From Methanobacteriota archaeon (GTDB lineage Archaea; Thermoplasmatota; E2; DHVEG-1), in assembly GCA_026394495.1 (NCBI GenBank), contig JAPKYE010000030.1:1-55738 (forward strand): 55,738 bases of DNA, given 5' to 3'. The notes beneath the pieces are model-generated. The model did no database searches. It saw only the letters and a list, made by a program, of their open reading frames with translations, and had not been told where the DNA came from. The position numbers were made by a program, and so were the translations under genes. This document shows positions 5,421-53,486 of the stretch, one piece after another. How positions within the stretch are numbered: the stretch's first letter is position 1; the number at the start of each line of letters is the position of its first letter.

Positions 5421-6230
5421 TTATAGAAACTGGGCGAGCCGTGTGATATCTTTATTGGCAACATGCGTGTAGATCTGCGTCGTCTGAAGATTCTTATGAC
5501 CAAGCAGATGCTGAATATACCTGATGTCTACACCATTTTCTAGCAAATGAGTCGCAAAACTATGACGCAGCGTATGCGGAGTCACATTCTTCACAATACC
5601 CGCTTTTTCAGATGCTTTCTTGACGATCAATTGAATCGTTCTTTTGTTATACAATCCACCATATTGCGAGGGGACAAGTAAGCCTTCATTGTTAATTCCA
5701 GACTTTTTCAACAGTTCTTTCACTTTTTCATGCAGGAATACGATCCGTTCTTTACTTCCTTTTGTGATTTTCACATGAATCATGTCTCGTTCAATATCGA
5801 TATCCTGCCATCGCAGATTTCTCACTTCATTGAGTCTCAAACCAGCATAATATAAAAGAGAAAGGACGAGTTTATGTTTCAGGTTCGTTGTTTGTTCCAG
5901 CATTCTATTGAGTTCATCTTTACTCAAGACGATTGGAATCCTTAAGCTTTGTTTTGCTAAGGGTATTTTTTCAGAAAACGGCTGATGCAAAACGTTTTCG
6001 TAAAAAAACTTCAAAGAAAAATAGACTGTTCTCATTGTTGAAGTGGTGTTTTCTCCTTGTAAAAGAAGAAAGTCGTGCGGTGTTTTTTCTGATTTTAAAA
6101 AGTTCTTGACATAGGAGATGTATGTTTTCCCTGTGTCATAAGAACATCGTCTTAATTTTAGCTCATCAATCAGTTTTCCAATAAGCTCATATCTCTGCTG
6201 CGGAGTAATTGTTTTCGTATCTGTCACCAT
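5421..6230 (-). CDS. xerA: XerA-like tyrosine recombinase
   Basis: 269 residues from ATG 6230. An N-terminal SAM-like DNA-binding domain (residues 1-90) is followed by the catalytic domain. The tyrosine-recombinase residues are all visible: R132 in AGLRLNE, a Lys in the TKGSKER hairpin (157-162), H219 and R222 in HTLRHSF, H245 in LLGHKN, and nucleophile Y254 in QIYTHV. Archaeal XerA resolves chromosome dimers at dif. The additional helix found in bacterial IntI between the Lys hairpin and the HxxRH box is not present. A TATA-like element is centred about 25 bp upstream of 6230, favouring a leaderless start over the longer 288-residue frame. The start lies 87 bp from the first junction of a cassette array, the layout of integron platforms. 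Confidence 0.9.
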
Positions 6231-6248
6231 AAAACGAAAGTAATTCCA

Positions 6249-6262
6249 GATATATAAATTTA
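6249..6262 (-). promoter_or_regulatory. TATA promoter of the recombinase gene
   Basis: Read on the minus strand this is TAAATTTATATATC. The TATA centre is about 25 bp from the ATG at 6230, the spacing expected for a leaderless archaeal transcript. Confidence 0.6.
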
Positions 6263-6387
6263 ATCTCGCTTTTAAATATAAAAACAACTATTAAATGCAG
6301 GCTGGGGGTAATAGGAGTTAATAGCAACTGCAGGTCCGCCACTAATTACGACGAAAAATAAACAAATAACAATCAAAACGACGTAAA

Positions 6388-6396
6388 ATTTAAATA
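6388..6396 (+). promoter_or_regulatory. TATA box of the cassette 1 peptide genes
   Basis: ATTTAAATA, with AAGGAAAG ahead of the ATG at 6435. The block from here to the ATG is almost identical to 52505-52552 ahead of the first peptide gene of the orphan cassette, including AACAACGTATAAAATAATAA. Confidence 0.6.
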
Positions 6397-6434
6397 AAAC
6401 AACAACGTATAAAATAATAAGGAAAGAAAAGATT

Positions 6435-6692
6435 ATGGGGCGAAGGTTGGTCTTAATCGGTTGTATAGGAGCGGTTTTCCTCCTCATGCTGACAACATTT
6501 TCATCTGCTGTTTGTTCGCAAAAAGTACAATTAAACGAAAAACAAGTAAATAGTTTTCAACAGATCAAAACTAAAATTGAAAATAATGATTGGGCACCAG
6601 GCGGTATTATTGATACTTTAGGATTTATAATACTTGTATTACTCGTCTTTATTACTGAATACTTAAGATATGGTGGTCCACCGCCAGGATAG
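6435..6692 (+). CDS. Small secreted/membrane peptide, WxPG family (member 1)
   Basis: 85 residues. An N-terminal signal peptide or first helix (RLVLIGCIGAVFLLMLTTF) ends in SSAVCSQK, then a hydrophilic stretch of about 35 residues (LNEKQVNSFQQIKTKIENN), the motif DWAPGGIIDTLGF, a second hydrophobic helix and a Pro/Gly tail (YGGPPPG). It has six relatives in this window (6705, 28608, 28909, 52553, 52801, 53058); the closest is 52553, which shares the leader sequence and opening residues. I recognise no known family. A bacteriocin-like, signalling or membrane-active role is possible but unproven. Confidence 0.75.
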   Translation: MGRRLVLIGCIGAVFLLMLTTFSSAVCSQKVQLNEKQVNSFQQIKTKIENNDWAPGGIIDTLGFIILVLLVFITEYLRYGGPPPG

Positions 6693-6704
6693 GAATTACA
6701 TTAT

Positions 6705-6953
6705 ATGACTAAGAAAATCCTCATCGGAAGCATCGGAATAATCTTCTTACTTGTATTTGTATCGTTTACATCGGTTGTTGGTGCACAAACAATAAAAATC
6801 AATGAAAAAAGAACAACTTTAATCCAATATATTAGAGATAAAATTAAACATAATGATTGGGCACAAGGAGGCATTATTGATACAATCGCATTTATGATAT
6901 TTGCATTTTTGGTAATGATGTCAGCATTTCTAAAAGGTTATCTTTTTTATTAA
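6705..6953 (+). CDS. Small secreted/membrane peptide, WxPG family (member 2)
   Basis: 82 residues with the same plan as its upstream neighbour: helix 1 (ILIGSIGIIFLLVFVSF) ending in SVVGAQT, a charged linker (NEKRTTLIQYIRDKIKHND), WAQGGIIDTI, then a second hydrophobic segment. It lies 12 bp after member 1 and is probably co-transcribed. The segment encoding ILIGSIGI is nearly identical in DNA to that at 52807-52840 in the orphan cassette, so the two cargo sets share ancestry. The motif reads WAQG rather than WAPG. Function unknown. Confidence 0.75.
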   Translation: MTKKILIGSIGIIFLLVFVSFTSVVGAQTIKINEKRTTLIQYIRDKIKHNDWAQGGIIDTIAFMIFAFLVMMSAFLKGYLFY

Positions 6954-7049
6954 TATTTTTATAACATTATGAATTATAAATGTGGCGGGCGGACCTGCAG
7001 TTTTCTTCACCCACGTTTGGGTTTGAAACCCTCGAAGATTCAGGTGCAT

Positions 7050-7156
7050 ATTAACACGCATTAAGAAAACAAAGAACTTGAAATTTTAATTTGCGATTAA
7101 AACTCAAGCCTTCCACGTGTTCAAGTTGAAGGTCTCTTAATGCGATACGTTATAAT
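7050..7156 (+). repeat. S1: attC-like foldable element, A type
   Basis: The left arm ATTAACACGCATTAAGA (7050-7066) pairs with the right arm TCTTAATGCGATACGTTATAAT (7135-7156), leaving an unpaired A against GTAT. Inside are two hairpins: TTTTAAT/ATTAAAA at 7084-7102 and CCTTC/GAAGG at 7109-7132. In S4 the same hairpins read TTTTAAC/GTTAAAA and CCACCACC/GGTGGTGG, so base pairing is kept while sequence changes. Confidence 0.75.
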
Positions 7157-7517
7157 CAGTTCAAAAGGGGGATTTTCGGACAGCACAAATAACAATCAAC
7201 CCTTTAAAATTAAAAAAATAAACTTAACAAATAAAAAAATATTTTAGGGGATAAGTTGGTGATAATCACCCAAAAAAAAAATTAAACGAAAACAACCGGC
7301 TGTCCAAAATCCCCTGAACCCAGCGACCAAATGCTTTGGTCTTGTCGTGCACCGGGACAAACTTGTAATTGTGTGCACGAGATTATAACACGCATTATGA
7401 CTCCACAATCTGATGATTGTTTCGCTCTTCGTCCCATGAACCCAAAAAAGGAGTTTTTTGGTGTGACTCAGGGAAACCCACCCAACCAGTTGGATGGGGT
7501 TCTCATAATGCGATACG
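7150..7517. mobile_element. Cassette 2, type B ends, no coding cargo
   Basis: The left end CAGTTCAAAAGGGGG plus ATTTTCGGACAGC is at 7157-7184; the inverted right end GGCTGTCCAAAATCCCC plus TGAAC is at 7298-7319. The 113 bp between them has no plausible gene but holds GGGGATAAGTTGG and the palindrome GGTGATAATCACC (7258-7270), shared with cassette 3. After the right end come a hairpin GACCAAA/TTTGGTC (7325-7341), a TCGTGCAC/GTGCACGA pair (7345-7380) and S2. Confidence 0.6.
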
Positions 7518-7524
7518 TTATAAT
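7382..7524 (+). repeat. S2: attC-like foldable element, B type
   Basis: Outer arms are ATTATAACACGCATTATGA (7382-7400) and TCATAATGCGATACGTTATAAT at 7503-7524. Inner hairpins: ACAATC/GATTGT (7405-7420), CCAAAAAA/TTTTTTGG (7442-7461), and AACCC..CCAAC/GTTGG..GGGTT in 7475-7501. The second hairpin is conserved in S3; the first and third vary. Confidence 0.75.
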
Positions 7525-7874
7525 CAGTTCAAAAGGAGGGTTTCGGACAGCCAAAAACAACAATCAACGTAAAATTAAAATTAACATAACGAATAAACTT
7601 TTTCTTGGGGATAAGTTGGGGATGATCACCGCAATAATTAAACGAAACAAAAACGGGGCTGTCCGAAACGCCTCTGAACTCTGCAACAATTCCCTGAATT
7701 GTTTTGTCGTGCACCGGGACAAACTTGGTAATGATGTGCACGAGATTATAACACGCATTATGACTCCGCCCAAAAGAGGGCTGCGCTCTTCATCCCATTA
7801 ACCCAAAAAAGGAGTTTTTTGGTGTGACTCAGGGAACCTCCCAACTAGTTGGTAGCTTCTCATAATGCGATACG
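7518..7874. mobile_element. Cassette 3, type B ends, no coding cargo
   Basis: The left end CAGTTCAAAAGGAGGG plus TTTCGGACAGCC is at 7525-7552; the inverted right end GGCTGTCCGAAACGCCTC plus TGAAC is at 7657-7679. Its 104 bp core is related to cassette 2 (CAACAATCAA, GGGGATAAGTTGG, GATCACC). Downstream are a hairpin ACAATT/AATTGT (7686-7702), the TCGTGCAC/GTGCACGA pair and S3. A 156-residue open frame crossing 7331-7801 runs through these repeats and is not credible as a gene. Confidence 0.6.
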
Positions 7875-7877
7875 TTA
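7745..7877 (+). repeat. S3: attC-like foldable element, B type
   Basis: Outer arms are ATTATAACACGCATTATGA (7745-7763) and TCATAATGCGATACGTTA (7860-7877). Inner hairpins: AAGAG/CTCTT (7774-7790), CCAAAAAA/TTTTTTGG (7803-7822) and CCAAC/GTTGG (7841-7852). The right arm is cut short at GTTA, where a type A left end (ATAGCAACTGC) begins. This marks the unit boundary. Confidence 0.75.
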
Positions 7878-8423
7878 ATAGCAACTGCAGGTCCGCCGAT
7901 TAGACGATTAAAAATTAACAAACAACAATTAAAAATTAATTCAAAAAATCAATCTTAACAACAAAAATATTTTATTCTTTTTTATGTTTGTGCACTTTAA
8001 TTTTATAATAATAAATACTTGTAATAAGAAAAAATATTAAAAATGTTAATAGTAGCTTCATAAATAACTCCAATCCTGGAATTGCCGCATAAATAATTGC
8101 GAATATAATAAAAAAAAGTATTGGTAAATAAAGATACCATTTCATATTTTTACTTAATAGTGTAAATACAGGCATTGGACCAAATGATATCATTTAATAA
8201 CTCCTCAAATTATTCAATTTTTAATATCAACATATTCTTTAAAAGCATTACTATAATCAAAATAATTATCGGTGGCGGACCTGCAGCTTTCTACACTGTC
8301 GTTTGAAACCCTCGATTATTCGGGTGCATATTAACACGCATTAAGAGAACAAATGAAATTTTAACTGCGTTAAAACTCAGGCCACCACCGAATCGCAAGG
8401 TGGTGGTCTCTTAATGCGATACG
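7875..8423. mobile_element. Cassette 4, type A ends, small membrane protein
   Basis: The left end TTAATAGCAACTGCAGG plus TCCGCC is at 7875-7897; the inverted right end GGCGGACCTGCAGCTTT is at 8274-8290, followed by CTACACTGTCGTTTGAAACC and S4. The single gene inside is on the minus strand, opposite to the cargo of cassette 1. Confidence 0.65.
7972..8193 (-). CDS. Small two-helix membrane protein (cassette 4 cargo)
   Basis: 73 residues with two hydrophobic segments (WYLYLPILFFIIFAIIYAAI and LLLTFLIFFLITSIYYY) and a basic tail (KIKVHKHKKE), so probably an inner-membrane protein with a cytoplasmic C-terminus. GAGGAG lies about 9 bp before the ATG at 8193. It fills most of cassette 4. No similarity to the WxPG peptides is apparent and I do not recognise the family. 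Confidence 0.6.
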   Translation of the reverse strand: MISFGPMPVFTLLSKNMKWYLYLPILFFIIFAIIYAAIPGLELFMKLLLTFLIFFLITSIYYYKIKVHKHKKE

Positions 8424-8430
8424 TTATAAT
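8330..8430 (+). repeat. S4: attC-like foldable element, A type
   Basis: The left arm ATTAACACGCATTAAGAGA (8330-8348) pairs with the right arm starting TCTCTTAATGCG (8407-8418) and ending ATACGTTATAAT. Inner hairpins: TTTTAAC/GTTAAAA (8359-8375) and a perfect 8-bp CCACCACC/GGTGGTGG (8382-8406). Compared with S1, the first hairpin has a T:A to C:G pair change and the second stem differs almost completely while remaining paired. Confidence 0.75.
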
Positions 8431-8513
8431 CAGTTCAACTGGGGGGGCTTCGGGCGGCAAAATAACAATTAATTAAAAAAAATGTTTTGACAATAGAATA
8501 AATCATCTAATCC

Positions 8514-9653
8514 TCACTGAGGGGCAATTCTTTTGAAATCATCTATGGACAATAGTTCGATTGCATATTCTCCAATAGGTGGAATATACCCTGTGACGAT
8601 TTTCATTGTATATCGGATTTTCAGACCATCAATCTTATACTCATCAGGTAAATTAATAGGATATACAAGGATGGGGCCGCCCCATTCAATAGGTTCTAAC
8701 ATTCCTGTATCAATCACCCAGTAACACTCAAACGTCGCATTCGCATAATCGGCGGATCCATTACTAAAAGTTGGAACCCTCATTCGACTCTCATTTCGGA
8801 TAGTCCCATTGTGCCATACCTTTGATTCATTATAAAAAGACACTTGAATACTATCAATAAATTCATTATGTTTTCCACGGATAGTTATTTCATGCATTCC
8901 CTCGCTGAATGTCATGGTATCAACATCATGGAAAAGATAGATCTCTGATTCTCCATGAGGATCGAAGGGATTTGGCAAGGTATTTGTTGTAAGGGTTGCA
9001 TTATTAACAAACACATTATCGATAAATAATTTCGTTTCACCCCAGCACACATTATAGGGGATGTGAACACCTATCCTTATACTTCCTTTAAGAAATGAGC
9101 CATTTCTTGGATAAGAAATACCTTGATAATAGCCGAATCGATAAAAGAGTGACTGATTCCATCCTTCGATTTGGAGTGTTATCGTTCCTGATCTTGTATG
9201 ATATTGGGCTCGAAATTTTTCTTTTAACATGGAGATATCAAGTGATATTACTTCTTGGATCAATGCTTTACAATGGTCATTATTCGCGTCATGCGCGAGA
9301 AAGAACGTCATCTGTCTCGGTAACGATTCATCGAACATCGAAGGACCGATCAATGCAAATTCATGTACTTTGCATCCACCACCATAAAATAACCAAATTT
9401 TAAGGGAATCGCTTTCAATCCACACATCCTTAATACACTGTTGCCCTCGGGGAAGATGCTGATAATACGCTTCATCCATTATCACCATTCCCTGTCGGAA
9501 AGGATAATCAACCTTTGATCTATCAAAAGCATCTCTCATTTGTTGGTCAGTATGTACGAGGAACGGGAGCGTGTAGCCAGTCGTTGTGCTTAAAAGAAGA
9601 AATCCTATTATTAGAATCAATCCAAACTGAACTTTTTTTGATTTCATATTCAT
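8514..9653 (-). CDS. Exported protein of unknown function (cassette 5 cargo)
   Basis: 379 residues from ATG 9653; a GTG one codon upstream is the alternative. A signal peptide (VQFGLILIIGFLLLSTTTGY) is followed by a wholly hydrophilic protein rich in beta-strand-like segments and possible N-glycosylation sites (NGT, NES, NGS, NAT). The region GGGCKVHEFALIGPSMFDES and then NNDHCKALIQEV contains paired cysteines that could form a disulfide. I do not recognise the family with certainty. A TATA-like element (ATTTATATA on the minus strand, 9679-9687) sits about 27-30 bp ahead, consistent with leaderless transcription. The gene lies wholly between the inverted ends of cassette 5. Confidence 0.75.
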   Translation of the reverse strand: MNMKSKKVQFGLILIIGFLLLSTTTGYTLPFLVHTDQQMRDAFDRSKVDYPFRQGMVIMDEAYYQHLPRGQQCIKDVWIESDSLKIWLFYGGGCKVHEFALIGPSMFDESLPRQMTFFLAHDANNDHCKALIQEVISLDISMLKEKFRAQYHTRSGTITLQIEGWNQSLFYRFGYYQGISYPRNGSFLKGSIRIGVHIPYNVCWGETKLFIDNVFVNNATLTTNTLPNPFDPHGESEIYLFHDVDTMTFSEGMHEITIRGKHNEFIDSIQVSFYNESKVWHNGTIRNESRMRVPTFSNGSADYANATFECYWVIDTGMLEPIEWGGPILVYPINLPDEYKIDGLKIRYTMKIVTGYIPPIGEYAIELLSIDDFKRIAPQ

Positions 9654-9678
9654 CACAATTTTATATTCATCTTGTGAG

Positions 9679-9687
9679 TATATAAAT
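9679..9687 (-). promoter_or_regulatory. TATA box of the cassette 5 cargo gene
   Basis: Minus strand reads ATTTATATA, about 27-30 bp from the start codons at 9656 (GTG) and 9653 (ATG). The promoter lies inside the cassette, so the cargo carries its own promoter, as in cassette 1. Confidence 0.55.
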
Positions 9688-10002
9688 GGTCGGAAAATGT
9701 TCGGAAAAAACCGAATAACACGTCTATAACTTATATATATGATTAAGCGAAACAGGTATTTTCGACCACCCGAAGCACCCCTGAACTCTGCAACCCCACA
9801 AAAGGAGTTTTGTCGTGCACAAAAAACAATAAATTGTGATGTGTGTGCACGAGATCATTACATGCAATAGCCGCATATGACATTTGAAGCAGTACTGCTC
9901 AAAAAAAGATAATGACATTAAAACAACAGACGAACTACAAAAATGACATGAAACTATAAGTAATTGAACAACGATTCTTATAGAAACCATACGAGGGAAA
10001 CC

Positions 10003-10557
10003 ATGGAAATAACAGCGTGTCCGAAATGTGGAAGTAAACGCATTGAAATGGGAACAATGGGTGCAGGGGTGACCTGGGGAGTTACTTCATGGAAAAGTGT
10101 ATGTGAAGATTGCGGATACCAAGGAGAACCTCTTCTTTTTGATTCTGAAAAAGAATACGAAAAATTTGTACAAGGGATGATCTCAAAAGAAATCGAACAA
10201 ACTTCGGATTCAGTTGGAGATGATGATTTGTCTCAGCTATCAAAAAAAGATGAAGAAGTCGTAGGACTTCTGAAAGAAGGAATAAACGAAGAAGAACCTC
10301 AACAAGAAGGTACGCAAAAAGATGGTGTGTTCCCAGAAAACAAATCATGGAGAATTGAAATCGGTTTTGCTATGATTTTAGCATTAGGCGCATTGAGCTT
10401 TTACTTGTTTAATATCTTTCGAACGTTTGATATCGTTTTTCTCATCGTCTATGGTTCGTTGCTATATAGCATACTAGTAATAGGTGAACTTGTTACGATT
10501 GTAATTATTGAGTATGTTTATTTCAGTATGCAGAAAATATCCAGACGAAAGAAATAA
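10003..10557 (+). CDS. Zinc-ribbon membrane protein
   Basis: 184 residues from ATG 10003, which has GAGGG at 9994-9998; an upstream TTG would add 13 residues. The N-terminus is a zinc ribbon (CPKCGSKR at about residue 6 and CEDCGYQG at about 37). An acidic Glu/Asp/Gln-rich linker (residues 60-115) follows, then two hydrophobic helices (FAMILALGALSFYLFNIF and a longer one near residue 145) and a basic tail (KISRRKK). The ribbon is probably cytoplasmic. Function unknown. A 12-bp palindrome AGCAGTACTGCT lies upstream at 9888-9899. Confidence 0.75.
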   Translation: MEITACPKCGSKRIEMGTMGAGVTWGVTSWKSVCEDCGYQGEPLLFDSEKEYEKFVQGMISKEIEQTSDSVGDDDLSQLSKKDEEVVGLLKEGINEEEPQQEGTQKDGVFPENKSWRIEIGFAMILALGALSFYLFNIFRTFDIVFLIVYGSLLYSILVIGELVTIVIIEYVYFSMQKISRRKK

Positions 10558-14787: not shown

Positions 14788-17700
14788 TTATTTCTTTTGT
14801 TTTGATTTCTTTTTTGTTTGTTTCGGTTGTTTTGTTTTCTTAGGTTTTGTTTTTTGTTTCTTTGGTTTGACTTTTTTCACAATTTTCTTGGCTGGTTTCT
14901 TTGGTTTGGGTTTCGCTTTCTTGGGTATTAATTTTCTGGTTTTTTTAGGTTTTTGTTTTTTAACAATTATTTTCTTTGGCTTTTCTTGTTTTGGTTTCGA
15001 TTTTTTACCAACACTTTTTTTAGACACCGGTTTTTTTGCTACAGCTTTCTTTTCTATTGTTGTTTCCGACGTTTGTTCTATGATTTCAGGTTCTTGAGGC
15101 GCTACTGGTTCTATCTTAGACGGTTCTACTGCTGCTGCATTCTCCCCAGAAGGAGAAGACGAATTCGGGGGTGGTGGCTCTTTGGGTTCCTCTTTTGGCA
15201 CCTCATATGATGCATCTAACTGACTTTTTTCTTCAGGGACACCCTCTACAACACATGTTTCGCTTTCACCAAGAACTTTAGTAATAGAAACAACACGATC
15301 GCCTTCGTTCAAACGCATGATACGAACACCCATCGTATTTCGTCCTTGACTGCGCAGATCCTTCATCGGTATCCGAACAGTCATACCAAGTTTAGTCGTG
15401 AAAATCAGCTCATTCTCATCGATCACCTGACTCACAAAGATTACTTTTCCGTTCCGATCATTAGTCACAATAGTACGAACACCAGTGCTTCCACGATGCG
15501 TCTTACGATATTCCTCAATAGGGGAACGCTTCCCAAACCCGTTCTCAGTCACCGTGATCAAAGATCCTTGCACATCAACATCAGCCATCGCAACCACAGC
15601 ATCATCTTTTTTCTTCAGACGCATACCGATGACACCATGGGCAGTTCGACCCATCGGCCTGATCTCTTTTTCTGTAAAACGCACCGCCTGACCACCGGCT
15701 GATGCCATCATAATCGTCCGTTCACCATCAGAAAGAACAACATTGATGATTTCATCGCCTTCATTAAGCTCAATAGCCCTAATACCATTAACACGAATAT
15801 TACCATATGCAGAAAGCGAGGTTTTCTTCACAAGTCCGTTCTTTGTGGCAAACACCAGATAATGCTTATCATCAAACTCATGAACTGGGATCGCTACCGC
15901 GATTTTTTCGCCCTCGCCAAGACGCGGCAACAAATTGATGATCGCTTTGCCTTTCGCATGACGATCACCCTCAGGAATCCGATATCCCTTCAACCAATAT
16001 ACCTGCCCACGGTTCGTGAAAAACATGATGTAATCATGGGTTGAAGTGGTGAAACAATCAACAACGAGGTCTTCTTCTTTTGTCTTCATGCCGATAACGC
16101 CTTTACCACCTCGATGCTGCGTCCGATACGTATCCACAGGCGTTCGTTTAATGTACCCCGTCTCAGTGATCGTGATAATGACCTCTTGCTTGGGGATTAA
16201 ATCCTCGATTTCAATACCGATTTCACCCTCAACGATTTCAGTGCGCCTCGCATCACCAAATCTCTCTTTAATATCAAGAAGCTCGCGTTTAATTTCATTT
16301 AAAATCTTCTGTTTGTCATTCAATATTTCTTGCAATTGCTCAATTAACAGTTTTGTCTCATTGTAATCTTTCTCTACAGATTCAATCTCCATACCCGTGA
16401 GCTTCTGCAGCCGCATATCAAGAATCGCTTTCACCTGAATCTCAGAGAGTTTAAACCGCGTCATCAACTTGCTTTTTGCTTCTTCGACTTCTTTACTATG
16501 ACGGATGATCTTGATGACCTCATCGATGTTGCGAAGAGCAATCAATAATCCTTCAAGAATATGCATTTTCTCCTTAGCTTTCATGAGATCAAAAGATGTA
16601 CGTTTTGTGATAATCTCAACACGGAACATGATGTACTGCGAAAGAATCTCTCTTAGCATGAGGACCTTTGGCGCTCCGTTCACAATAGCTAGATTCAAAA
16701 TACCAAAAGTAGATTGAAGCTCAGTATGCTCAAACAACTGATTCAACACAACATCCTCTATTGCATCACGTTTCAGATCAATGACAATACGCATCCCTTT
16801 CCGGTCGCTTTCATCACGCAGATCAGAAATCCCCTCTATTTTTTTGTCTTTCACCAGCTCCGCAATCGCCTTAAGCAGATTTGATTTATTGACCATGAAC
16901 GGTATCTCAGTGACAATAATCCGTTTCCGTTCTTCATCCTCAATATGTGTTTTTGCACGAATGCGAACAAGCCCTCTCCCCGTTGAATACGCATTTAAAA
17001 TCCCTTCCCTACCGTAGATAATACCACCAGTCGGAAAATCAGGTCCTTTGATGATTTCCATCAACGAAGCAGTCGATATCTCCGGGTCATCGATCATGCG
17101 GATGACGCCATCGATCACCTCAGACAGATTATGCGGCGCCATGTTCGTCGCCATACCCACCGCGATACCAGAAGAACCATTCAACAGCAGATTTGGTAAT
17201 ACCGCAGGCAGAACAGCGGGTTCCTTTAGAGATCCATCGAAGTTATCATGCCATTGCACGGTTTCTTTATCGATATCCTGTAGCATGAACTTGGTGATCT
17301 TCGCCATTTTAATTTCAGTGTTATGATTAATGAAACCATTGGCAACATAGGAATGACATGTACTATCCACACGAAGTGAATAGACTGTTTTTTCTTCAGC
17401 GGTTCGAGTGATGTTTTTAACACGGTTAAAGAAATATTCATACTGAAGAAGTTCATCAATGAATTTTCTATCCTGCACATCAAGTTTTTTCATAAGTAGA
17501 GAATAATTTTTCCGAAGATTGTTATAACGATCAAAATTGCATCTATCAAGTTGCGAATCTTCATACTTTGTTCGTAAATACTCATTGAGAAAAGGAATGA
17601 AATCGTTTTTACTCATACGAGTCATGTTCATGTCTTTAATCTTTGCTAATCGTTTTTGTTTTTTTGAACAGGAAAAACCGATACATTCCTGAAATCTCTT

Positions 17701-19002
17701 AATATTAGATACATCTGAGATGATGAGCTTGTAACAGGGACATCTTTTATCTTTATACGGCAATGTGGTAACAATCCCAAAATTCAGAAGTGTCGTTTTG
17801 AGTTGACTGATTAATTGCTTACTATTTGAAAGATACGTTAATTCTATGGATTTTCCACCATGACGTCTGTCTACTTTGTTTGAAACCGATCCGTCTCCTT
17901 CATATAAACCACGGAGGAAACTCACAATACATTCTCTTTTAGACTGTAAGACAGTAAAAGGTATTGCTTTTTTCTCAGACTTTACTTGAGTAAGACCAAT
18001 GTTTTTTAAAAATTCGACAACGTGTTGGTAATAAATGCTCAGCTCAGTGCATTTACATTTTGGTAGTTTTCTTTCGTAGAGCTGGATGCCGGGGAATTGA
18101 TGAAGAATTGCTTGTTTTACCTGAGCATAATATTCTTTATCCAAATTAACAAAGAGGATTTGGTTATTATGAAAACTCCCTTCAGATACCAAAGCACCGA
18201 GTAGAAAAGCAAGTTCTGCATTCATTGTTTCTGGGAGATTAAACTTCTTTGCTCTTTTACTTACGATCGGATAATATGGTTTCAATACGACGTTTTTTTT
18301 CGAAAAAAGCTGAGATGATCTGCTCATTGCGACATAATCGTCTTTCGTGATTTCAGCAAGCATTTTCCATTTAAGGTGGGGAATACCATGTTCGTACACC
18401 CATGTTACCACTGGATGATTGTAGGATCCTTCAAGTTCGTAACCTTGTTCAGTTCGCAAGGATATCGTTGGATGTTTACCAGAGTTAAAAAATTTTGATG
18501 CATGTGTTTTTTGATTCTGATAGTTTACAATCCGCAGATTAACATCAGTCTCAGTACCTGAGGCAACATCTTTTATCTCCTTTATTCCTTGATCAGTGAG
18601 AACCATCGTATTTCCTGCGATACAATATCGCATAGCTGCAGGACTGTCACCATCGATTGAACCAAAATTACCTTGACCAGCGACAAGAGGATATCTCAAA
18701 GAAAAATCTTGTGCCATACGTACAAGAGAATCATAGACGGCCTGGTCACCATGAGGATGATACTTACCTAGAACATCTCCGACGATACGCGCAGATTTTT
18801 TATATGTTTTTTCGTAACCAAGTCCCATTTCATTCATTCCAAATAAAATTCGTCGGTGCACCGGTTTTAAACCATCCCGTACATCAGGAAGAGCACGGCT
18901 CATGATCACACTCATTGAATAATCAATGAATGCCCGTTTCATTTCATTTTCAATCGGTTGTGGTTGTTCTCTTTTTTCTGGCGTTGGTTTCTCATCTGTC
19001 AT
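14788..19002 (-). CDS. gyrA: DNA gyrase subunit A with an intein and a Lys/Pro-rich tail
   Basis: 1404 residues before splicing, about 969 after removal of a 435-residue intein. The extein begins with the winged-helix cleavage domain ([18 protein letters not shown]); the catalytic Tyr is the residue just before the intein in SPAAMRY. After the intein come the tower and coiled-coil, then the beta-pinwheel with the GyrA box QHRGGKGV, which marks gyrase rather than topoisomerase IV. After the pinwheel is a tail of about 170 residues: an acidic/Pro-rich linker and then about 110 residues almost entirely Lys, Pro and Val/Ile, like histone H1 tails. The start at 19002 is chosen because AAGGAGG lies 9 bp before it; the ATG at 19011 directly abuts that site. 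gyrB is 14 bp upstream. Confidence 0.95.
17320..18624 (-). other. GyrA intein with LAGLIDADG homing endonuclease
   Basis: 435 residues, in frame inside gyrA. It starts with Cys ([13 protein letters not shown]) directly after the catalytic tyrosine and ends with NGFINHN followed by extein Thr. Splicing blocks are visible: block A at the Cys, block B as [10 protein letters not shown] near residue 67, block F as [17 protein letters not shown] and block G with His-Asn. The endonuclease motifs are [12 protein letters not shown] (about 141) and [12 protein letters not shown] (about 237). The insertion point, next to the active-site Tyr, is the one used by known gyrA inteins in other organisms. Confidence 0.93.
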
Positions 19003-19016
19003 CTTTGTCATCCTCC

Positions 19017-52399: not shown

Positions 52400-52504
52400 T
52401 GATTTTGTTTTTTTAAAATATTTATTAATAGCAACTGCAGGTCCGCACGGAAACGACATAAAAACAAACCAATAACTAATAAAAACAATCAAAAACAACA
52501 ATAA

Positions 52505-52513
52505 ATTTAAATA
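52505..52513 (+). promoter_or_regulatory. TATA box of the orphan cassette peptides
   Basis: ATTTAAATA, followed by the same leader (AACAACGTATAAAATAATAA and AAGGAAAGAAA) as in cassette 1. Confidence 0.6.
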
Positions 52514-52552
52514 AAACAACAACGTATAAAATAATAAGGAAAGAAAGAAACT

Positions 52553-52804
52553 ATGGGGCGAAGGTTGGTCGTAGTCGGAGTTACAGGAGTAATTTTCCTC
52601 CTGATATTAGCAATGTTTCCATCGATTGTGAGTGCACAAAAAGTACAGTTAAACGAAACGCAGAAAAATGTTTTTCAACATTTCAAAGATAAAATCGAAA
52701 ATAAACTTTGGGAACCAGGAAATTTTCTTGATGATATCATGGTTTTAATTTTTATGATCATTTGGCTACTTGTAACCGGGGGAGTAGGACCTGGTGCACC
52801 ATGA
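52553..52804 (+). CDS. Small secreted/membrane peptide, WxPG family (member 5)
   Basis: 83 residues: helix 1 (LVVVGVTGVIFLLILAMF) ending in SIVSAQK, linker (VQLNETQKNVFQHFKDKIEN), motif LWEPGNFLDD, second helix and Gly/Pro tail (GGVGPGAP). It starts MGRRLV and reads KVQLNE like member 1 and shares its leader DNA, so the two are recent copies. The stop overlaps the next ATG (ATGA). Confidence 0.75.
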   Translation: MGRRLVVVGVTGVIFLLILAMFPSIVSAQKVQLNETQKNVFQHFKDKIENKLWEPGNFLDDIMVLIFMIIWLLVTGGVGPGAP

Positions 52805-53043
52805 ATAATAAAATCCTCATCGGAAGCATCGGAATAATATTCTTACTTGTTCTTATGTCATTTACATCAGTTGTTAGTGCACAAACAACAAAGAGAACAA
52901 TTAATGTAAGGATGCTTCAACAAATAAAAACATTTGTAAAAAACACTGAATGGTTTCCAGGACAAATTCTCGGAACACTTTTCGTTGCATTTTTAACTTT
53001 ATTATGGTATCTGACTAAATGGTTAATATCACCGCATAATTAA
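52801..53043 (+). CDS. Small secreted/membrane peptide, WxPG family (member 6)
   Basis: 80 residues: helix 1 (KILIGSIGIIFLLVLMSF) ending in SVVSAQT, basic linker (TTKRTINVRMLQQIKTFVKN), motif EWFPGQILG, second helix and a short tail. Closest to member 2. It is coupled to member 5 by an ATGA overlap. Confidence 0.75.
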   Translation: MNNKILIGSIGIIFLLVLMSFTSVVSAQTTKRTINVRMLQQIKTFVKNTEWFPGQILGTLFVAFLTLLWYLTKWLISPHN

Positions 53044-53057
53044 AAAGAGAAAAATAC

Positions 53058-53312
53058 ATGAACAAGAAAATCCTCATCGGAAGCATCGCAGTTGTTTTTC
53101 TGATTCTTTTTGTTTTATTTAAACCTACGGTTGATGCCAGATCACTTACAAAAGACAGCACAAACAAATTACTAAAAAATAAGATTATTTGTAGTCCTGG
53201 TCATTTTATTGATATTTTACTTATGCTTATTTATGGTACTATTGTTCTTATTTTTGCCATCCTTGGATATGAAAATCATTTCAGTGATATAATGAAATAT
53301 TGGTCGCCATAA
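53058..53312 (+). CDS. Small secreted/membrane peptide, WxPG family (member 7)
   Basis: 84 residues: helix 1 (KILIGSIAVVFLILFVLF), linker with Lys/Asn (LTKDSTNKLLKNKIICSPG), second helix (FIDILLMLIYGTIVLIFAIL) and a longer polar tail. Its PG is preceded by CS instead of Trp and a residue. The signal region is nearly identical to members 2 and 6 and then diverges, so the mature part evolves faster. It lies 14 bp after member 6. Confidence 0.72.
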   Translation: MNKKILIGSIAVVFLILFVLFKPTVDARSLTKDSTNKLLKNKIICSPGHFIDILLMLIYGTIVLIFAILGYENHFSDIMKYWSP

Positions 53313-53486
53313 TTCTTTTTATAAAATAATTAATTATAAATGTGGCGGCAGACCTGTAGTTTTCTACACTATCGCTTGAAGCCCTCGAAGGTTCTGGTGC
53401 ATAGTAACATATATTGTAAAAAGATATAAATAGGGATAACATATTTTATATACAAGTAAACATATAAATTTAGTATGGTAATAACG

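Follow-up and report, generated by a model that had tools for sequence, protein, structure and literature searches.

Can a tyrosine recombinase without the insertion typical of integron integrases collect gene cassettes? The question is raised by a 55,738-nucleotide contig of a Methanobacteriota archaeon (GTDB lineage Archaea; Thermoplasmatota; E2; DHVEG-1; assembly GCA_026394495.1, contig JAPKYE010000030.1), hereafter the window, in which a recombinase gene adjoins an array of tandem units (Table 1). We conclude, with a probability of about 0.85, that the window carries a small archaeal integron-like gene-capture system with a non-IntI integrase, in a Thermoplasmata-related host. A preliminary description of this DNA had proposed an archaeal integron-like system that departs from the known consensus, and every test named in it that was run supports the proposal. 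Surveys identify integron integrases through a single inserted domain, whose presence they demand.

Table 1. Features of the recombinase locus and of the solo unit in the window.
Feature	Position	Strand	Details
Tyrosine recombinase (proposed integrase)	5421..6230	-	269 aa; intact; points away from array
Recombinase promoter region	6251..6273	-	TATA-like box 6251-6261, AAGCGAG box 6265-6273
attI-like site	6288..6320	+	dyad CTATTA (6288-6293)...TAATAG (6309-6314) adjoining G^TTA junction 6317/6318
Unit 1	6318..7149	+	type-1 ends; two related secreted/membrane peptides, open reading frames (ORFs) 6435-6692 and 6705-6953
attC-like site, end of unit 1	7048..7157	+	covariance model 41.4 bits
Unit 2	7150..7517	+	type-2 ends; no convincing ORF
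attC-like site, end of unit 2	7382..7525	+	covariance model 40.8 bits
Unit 3	7518..7874	+	type-2 ends; near copy of unit 2; no convincing ORF
attC-like site, end of unit 3	7745..7882	+	in model training; unlisted by cmsearch under default filters
Unit 4	7875..8423	+	type-1 ends; 73-aa membrane peptide, minus strand, 7972-8193
attC-like site, end of unit 4	8328..8431	+	46.3 bits; outside model training set
Unit 5	8424..9865	+	type-2 ends; 380-aa ORF 8514-9656, minus strand; decayed right end, hairpin not closed
Solo type-1 unit	52425..53408	+	three paralogous secreted peptides; without attC hairpin

The array consists of five head-to-tail units in identical orientation, all opening at G^TTA. 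The preliminary description had placed these junctions at 6317/6318, 7149/7150, 7517/7518, 7874/7875, and 8423/8424, where all five indeed lie; it was also right that the recombinase gene sits beside the first unit and points outward, that units 2 and 3 have no convincing coding content, and that unit 4 encodes a membrane peptide. Its claim that a foldable element closes each unit holds for units 1-4 and fails for unit 5, which ends in a decayed half-site. In units 1-4 the closing hairpin reads TAAC-A-L'' (10-12 bp)...L'-ATAC-GTTA, with an L'' arm CGCATTA(A/T)GA after the single A, then a variable loop and a complementary L' arm. Compared with dinucleotide shuffles, the four closing elements form much more stable folds (z -2.3 to -6.6), and across the 2.22-Mb genome the L'-R' core 16-mer ATAATGCGATACGTTA, with two mismatches or fewer, is present at four places, each within the array. 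The right end of unit 5 (9780-9865) retains the R''/L''-like GATCATTAC-ATGCAATAG and has no L'/R' partner after it, so that the window holds four complete sites and one decayed end.

The units also bear long internal inverted ends (AACTGCAGGTCCGCC/GGCGGACCTGCAGTT and GGGGGATTTTCGGACAGC/GCTGTCCAAAATCCCC), one kind common to units 1 and 4 (type 1) and the other to units 2, 3, and 5 (type 2); folded as an excised circle, a unit pairs its two ends with each other and so extends the attC stem into one large cruciform. No long internal ends of the window type were seen in the related arrays inspected, and they look like a peculiarity of the cassettes of this genome. The novel inverted ends of the preliminary description exist, but they do not seem to be what defines the system. 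What defines it is the combination of G^TTA junction, TAAC-A-L''/L'-3..5 nt-GTTA hairpin, attI-like element, and recombinase.

The R' box of the hairpin sites is GTTANNNGC-like, taking the forms GTTATAATC and GTTAATAGC in the window. Neither these nor the relatives' GTTATATTC, GTTATACGC, and similar boxes fit the R''/R' consensus RYYYAAC/GTTRRRY, whereas the boxes of some other relatives (GTTAAACTC, GTTAGGCGT) do. With spacers of 1 and 3-5 nt and a continuous L stem, the sites also lack the central spacer and extrahelical bases of the class-1 attC type. Stem covariation is 0.544 vs. 0.123 in shuffles, as counted on an alignment that was fitted to the structure.

The attI-like element lies 87 nt from the recombinase start in the window, and 86-91 nt from it in the DPANN loci measured. 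Many orthologues carry, about 90 nt before the start, the motif (A)AC|AACTATTAAGCGAGATAAAT.TTCGCTTAATAG followed by AAAAAGCGAGATTTTATATA, of which the window element (TCCTATTA...TTTAATAG and AAAAGCGAGATTAAATTTATATA) is a weaker version; both promoter boxes, compared by eye, are also found upstream of DPANN orthologues. In five DHVE2 genomes, binned identity is 82-100% between the junction and the interior of the gene but 25-42% past the AAC. The five share one platform and differ in the first cassette next to its attI, which is the kind of variation among related strains that the preliminary description had looked for. Conserved beside the integrase gene and marked by a sharp drop in identity at G^TT, the element is a putative attI insertion point. 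The ~4.6 kb occupied by the recombinase and array separate two genes that lie 14-53 bp apart in eight relatives of the window family.

When an integron cassette is circular, its R'' box pairs with R', so that R'' is expected to match the start of its own cassette. Among 16 cassettes from genomes outside the model training, R'' matched its own start (at least 4/5 positions beyond GTTA) in 13 and the start of the next cassette in 1 (permutation p 5e-5), as expected if cassettes were formerly circles. Within the window, the own-start match covers 5/5 positions for units 2 and 3, and 3/5 for units 1 and 4. Cassettes are also exchanged among related arrays. A 706-bp isochorismatase cassette is common to loci L062 and L151 (90.65% identity, unrelated flanks), and the G of G^TTA is precisely where homology sets in; the cassette adjoins attI in a Pacearchaeota genome and lies inside another array in genome G287. 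A 677-bp stretch is likewise common to L056 and L061 (83.6% identity). The same cassette thus stands in different neighbourhoods in different genomes, an arrangement observed in relatives, not in the window itself. The attC halves of the 706-bp cassette differ (L151 9604-9712 vs. L062 1903-1995), a difference that looks like exchange of the closing site. Most cassettes of related arrays carry a single ORF, and their cargo includes a tRNA-editing domain, isochorismatase, methyltransferase, MFS transporter, serine hydrolase, HIT, HAD, pyroglutamyl peptidase, and trypsin-like protease; window cargo matched no Pfam or NCBIfam family above cut-off.

Beyond the window, a scan of named genomes covered ~57 archaeal recombinase loci, in Aenigmatarchaeota, Pacearchaeota, Woesearchaeota, Nanoarchaeota, Micrarchaeota, Diapherotrites, DHVE2, and other Thermoplasmatota. 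A hairpin scan that selected on pairing and spacing, and not on the conserved A or the ACTT before L', placed TAAC-A-L''...L'-3..5 nt-GTTA sites upstream of many of these loci. Covariance model R1 (E<=0.01) detected 27 sites in 20 loci, some of which had trained the model; all 27 are upstream and antisense and 0 are downstream (binomial p 2e-15, allowing for the sequence searched, more of which lay downstream). As the preliminary description had anticipated for such a model, tandem copies occur elsewhere with different genes in between. In an independent set of 188 genomes from the class of a DPANN member, in which recombinase and sites were searched separately, nine new genomes have both on one contig (G211, G229, G306, G258, G293, G232, G273, G172, and G265), the site always upstream and antisense; sites occur in 22/84 recombinase-positive vs. 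5/104 recombinase-negative genomes (p 4e-5). All these site counts come from a single model, strictly filtered when the search space was large, and of the four window sites it recovered one when the whole genome was searched. A contig end falls within 1.5 kb of the recombinase on its upstream side in 32/57 loci vs. 2 on its downstream side, as expected if repeats occupy the upstream side. That the same features recur across archaea suggests widespread integron-like gene capture by an enzyme that lacks the part supposed to define integron integrases.

Two further kinds of array were encountered. A more distant recombinase group has arrays of the same geometry downstream of the gene (L044 7497-9694, L048 11021-11102); the L048 recombinase has an N-terminal extension, and the two loci represent a second array type in the same archaeal family. 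A Flavobacterium locus (L108 11402-12463) has three tandem TAAC-A-L..L-CGGAC-GTTA sites with the own-start pattern near a non-IntI-like recombinase, and the system may be present in Bacteroidota.

The catalytic residues of the window recombinase (R132, K157, H219, R222, H245, and Y254) are invariant across 34 orthologues. Orthologues with 50-67% identity are distributed across DPANN and Thermoplasmatota. From the KG(S)K/ER motif to TPHTLRH there are 54 residues in the window protein and 51-54 in 33 aligned orthologues, vs. 98 in IntI1; the IntI-specific insertion (around patch III) is absent from all of them, which bears out the preliminary description of an enzyme without it. The window protein falls below the cut-off of the integron-integrase model TIGR02249 (182 bits, cut-off 265) and of its best NCBIfam model, the archaeal XerA equivalog NF040815 (201.5 bits, cut-off 220; this bit score is for the window protein, the other orthologues having been judged by E-values). 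In the tree, the orthologues form one clade (100/99) on the IntI1 side, apart from XerA-like sequences (99/97), although the exact position of IntI1 is unsure because its branch is long. An AlphaFold model (predicted local distance difference test score 82) gave XerA 5hxy as the best Foldseek match by E-value, and the integron integrase 2a3v a higher TM-score than 5hxy. A full or near-full orthologue at a minimum of 50% identity is present in 5/98 relatives, a patchy distribution. A role in XerA/dif chromosome-dimer resolution was considered and rejected, given the separate clade, the patchy distribution, and the linked arrays. Stop codons interrupt two orthologues, once at L067 1557-2363 and eight times at L103 10001-10720 (in a fixed tblastn frame); these are possible decayed platforms.

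We infer that the window recombinase performs the recombination, and that it does so through a circular intermediate. The enzyme would act at the attI-like site and also at the hairpin-forming attC-like site that ends each cassette, with strand exchange at G^TTA; circular cassettes could then be joined at attI, excised between attC-like hairpins, and reshuffled. The conserved stem and the own-start rule point to the folded single strand as the probable substrate. The enzyme clade, which spans DPANN and Thermoplasmatota, lies on the IntI side of the tree without the IntI-defining insertion around patch III. It is somewhat more probable than otherwise that the DPANN and Thermoplasmatota systems form a distinct integron lineage, in which the integrase never had or has lost this insertion and recognises a tighter hairpin; on the same estimate this lineage may supply the integrase absent from many archaeal clusters of attC sites lacking integrases (CALINs), and the insertion would be dispensable for cassette capture.

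An alternative that we regard as unlikely accepts the same cassette system, and holds that the enzyme uses double-stranded core sites in the style of Xer/dif or pdif, the hairpins being incidental or serving, for example, as transcription terminators. Such an enzyme could well be XerA-like in fold and lack the IntI insertion tied to folded-site recombination, as this one does, and the attI-like dyad flanks the junction in a way that resembles a Xer core site. However, the stem is preserved by compensatory changes despite varying sequence, each R'' matches its own start hundreds of bases away, as expected if R''/R' pairing matters, and the spacer beside R'' is a conserved single A whose identity was not used in site selection. 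It is improbable that the array is a canonical CALIN whose cassettes are moved by a classical IntI encoded elsewhere, with the neighbouring recombinase as a bystander: no IntI above cut-off was found in 60 genomes (the window's own and 59 relatives), and the recombinase adjoins attI in fixed orientation at many loci across phyla. The boxes and spacers also differ from those of class-1 attC, and the archaeal covariance model returned no site in five class-1 integron regions, although archaeal CALINs are known (PMC9668308) and the R''-L''-L'-R' layout is shared with attC. Finally, the long inverted ends common to units 1 and 4 and to units 2, 3, and 5, together with the hairpin-free solo type-1 unit, recall miniature inverted-repeat transposable elements inserted side by side and unrelated to the recombinase. 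We consider this highly improbable, since all units share one orientation and one G^TTA junction, complete sites are confined to the array within the genome, and long ends of this kind are missing from related arrays that retain the junction, hairpin, and recombinase.

Several observations weigh against an integron-like system. All evidence consists of genome sequences, and no strain pair differs by a whole unit at the window locus (no same-genus genome was among those compared). Unit 5 and the solo unit lack a complete attC, stem covariation was counted on the structure-fitted alignment, five of the 104 genomes in which the recombinase was undetected carry sites, and several recombinase loci show no site detectable by the covariance model. 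All genomes are metagenome-assembled, so that contigs may be broken or chimeric.

Elsewhere in the window, the peptide ORFs of the solo unit are paralogous to those of unit 1, and it is possibly a cassette that entered a secondary site and then decayed. The short secreted/membrane peptide family (6435-6953 and 52553-53312) has 17 tblastn matches in its own genome, including contigs C48, C93, C42, C30, and C28, with four in tandem on C48; type-1 ends were absent at the other sites of the family checked in this genome. PADLOC returned zero matches for window cargo and recombinase, and an Rfam scan of 6000-10100 yielded nothing credible, the sole match (U6) being under the gathering threshold. 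At 14788-19011 the window encodes gyrase subunit A with an intein bearing a LAGLIDADG domain.

If an entire lineage of archaea does capture cassettes without the insertion, present counts underestimate how common integrons are, and probably also how old; an integrase may have been overlooked in many archaeal arrays that are classed as integrase-less; the structural explanation accepted for folded-site recombination becomes directly testable; and DPANN archaea, with their small genomes and much borrowed gene content, would have a concrete route of gene acquisition.

Archaeal integrons have been described previously, as have archaeal CALINs, which are attC clusters without IntI reported in groups including Nanoarchaeota and Aenigmatarchaeota (Ghaly et al., 2022; PMC9668308). 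By description, these CALINs resemble the window in being archaeal cassette arrays without canonical IntI in overlapping groups; unlike them, window-type arrays are accompanied by a dedicated non-IntI recombinase. In the literature (preprints outside the search), no report of this recombinase-array link was found apart from PMC9668308. The archaeal XerA/dif system provides the closest fold by Foldseek E-value (5hxy) and the best NCBIfam model (NF040815), but the window-type recombinase is patchy, falls in a separate clade (99/97), and is tied to cassette arrays rather than to a single dif site. In pdif modules, gene modules lie between recombinase core sites and depend on host XerCD, and they are not known to have a folded attC or linked recombinase. 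IntI integrons share with the archaeal system an attI-like site next to the recombinase gene, cassettes that follow one another with G^TT junctions (with window unit 5 lacking a complete end site), a foldable R''-L''-L'-R' site that ends each cassette and whose R'' corresponds to the start of that same cassette, a single accessory ORF in most cassettes, and cassettes common to different genomes. They differ in that the archaeal enzyme is ~269 aa without the IntI insertion (51-54 vs. 98 residues), that the archaeal R' box is GTTANNNGC-like (GTTATAATC/GTTAATAGC in the window) and not GTTRRRY, and that class-1 attC sites have spacers of ~5 and 6 nt and an extrahelical base, whereas the archaeal sites have spacers of 1 and 3-5 nt and an uninterrupted L stem of 10-12 bp.

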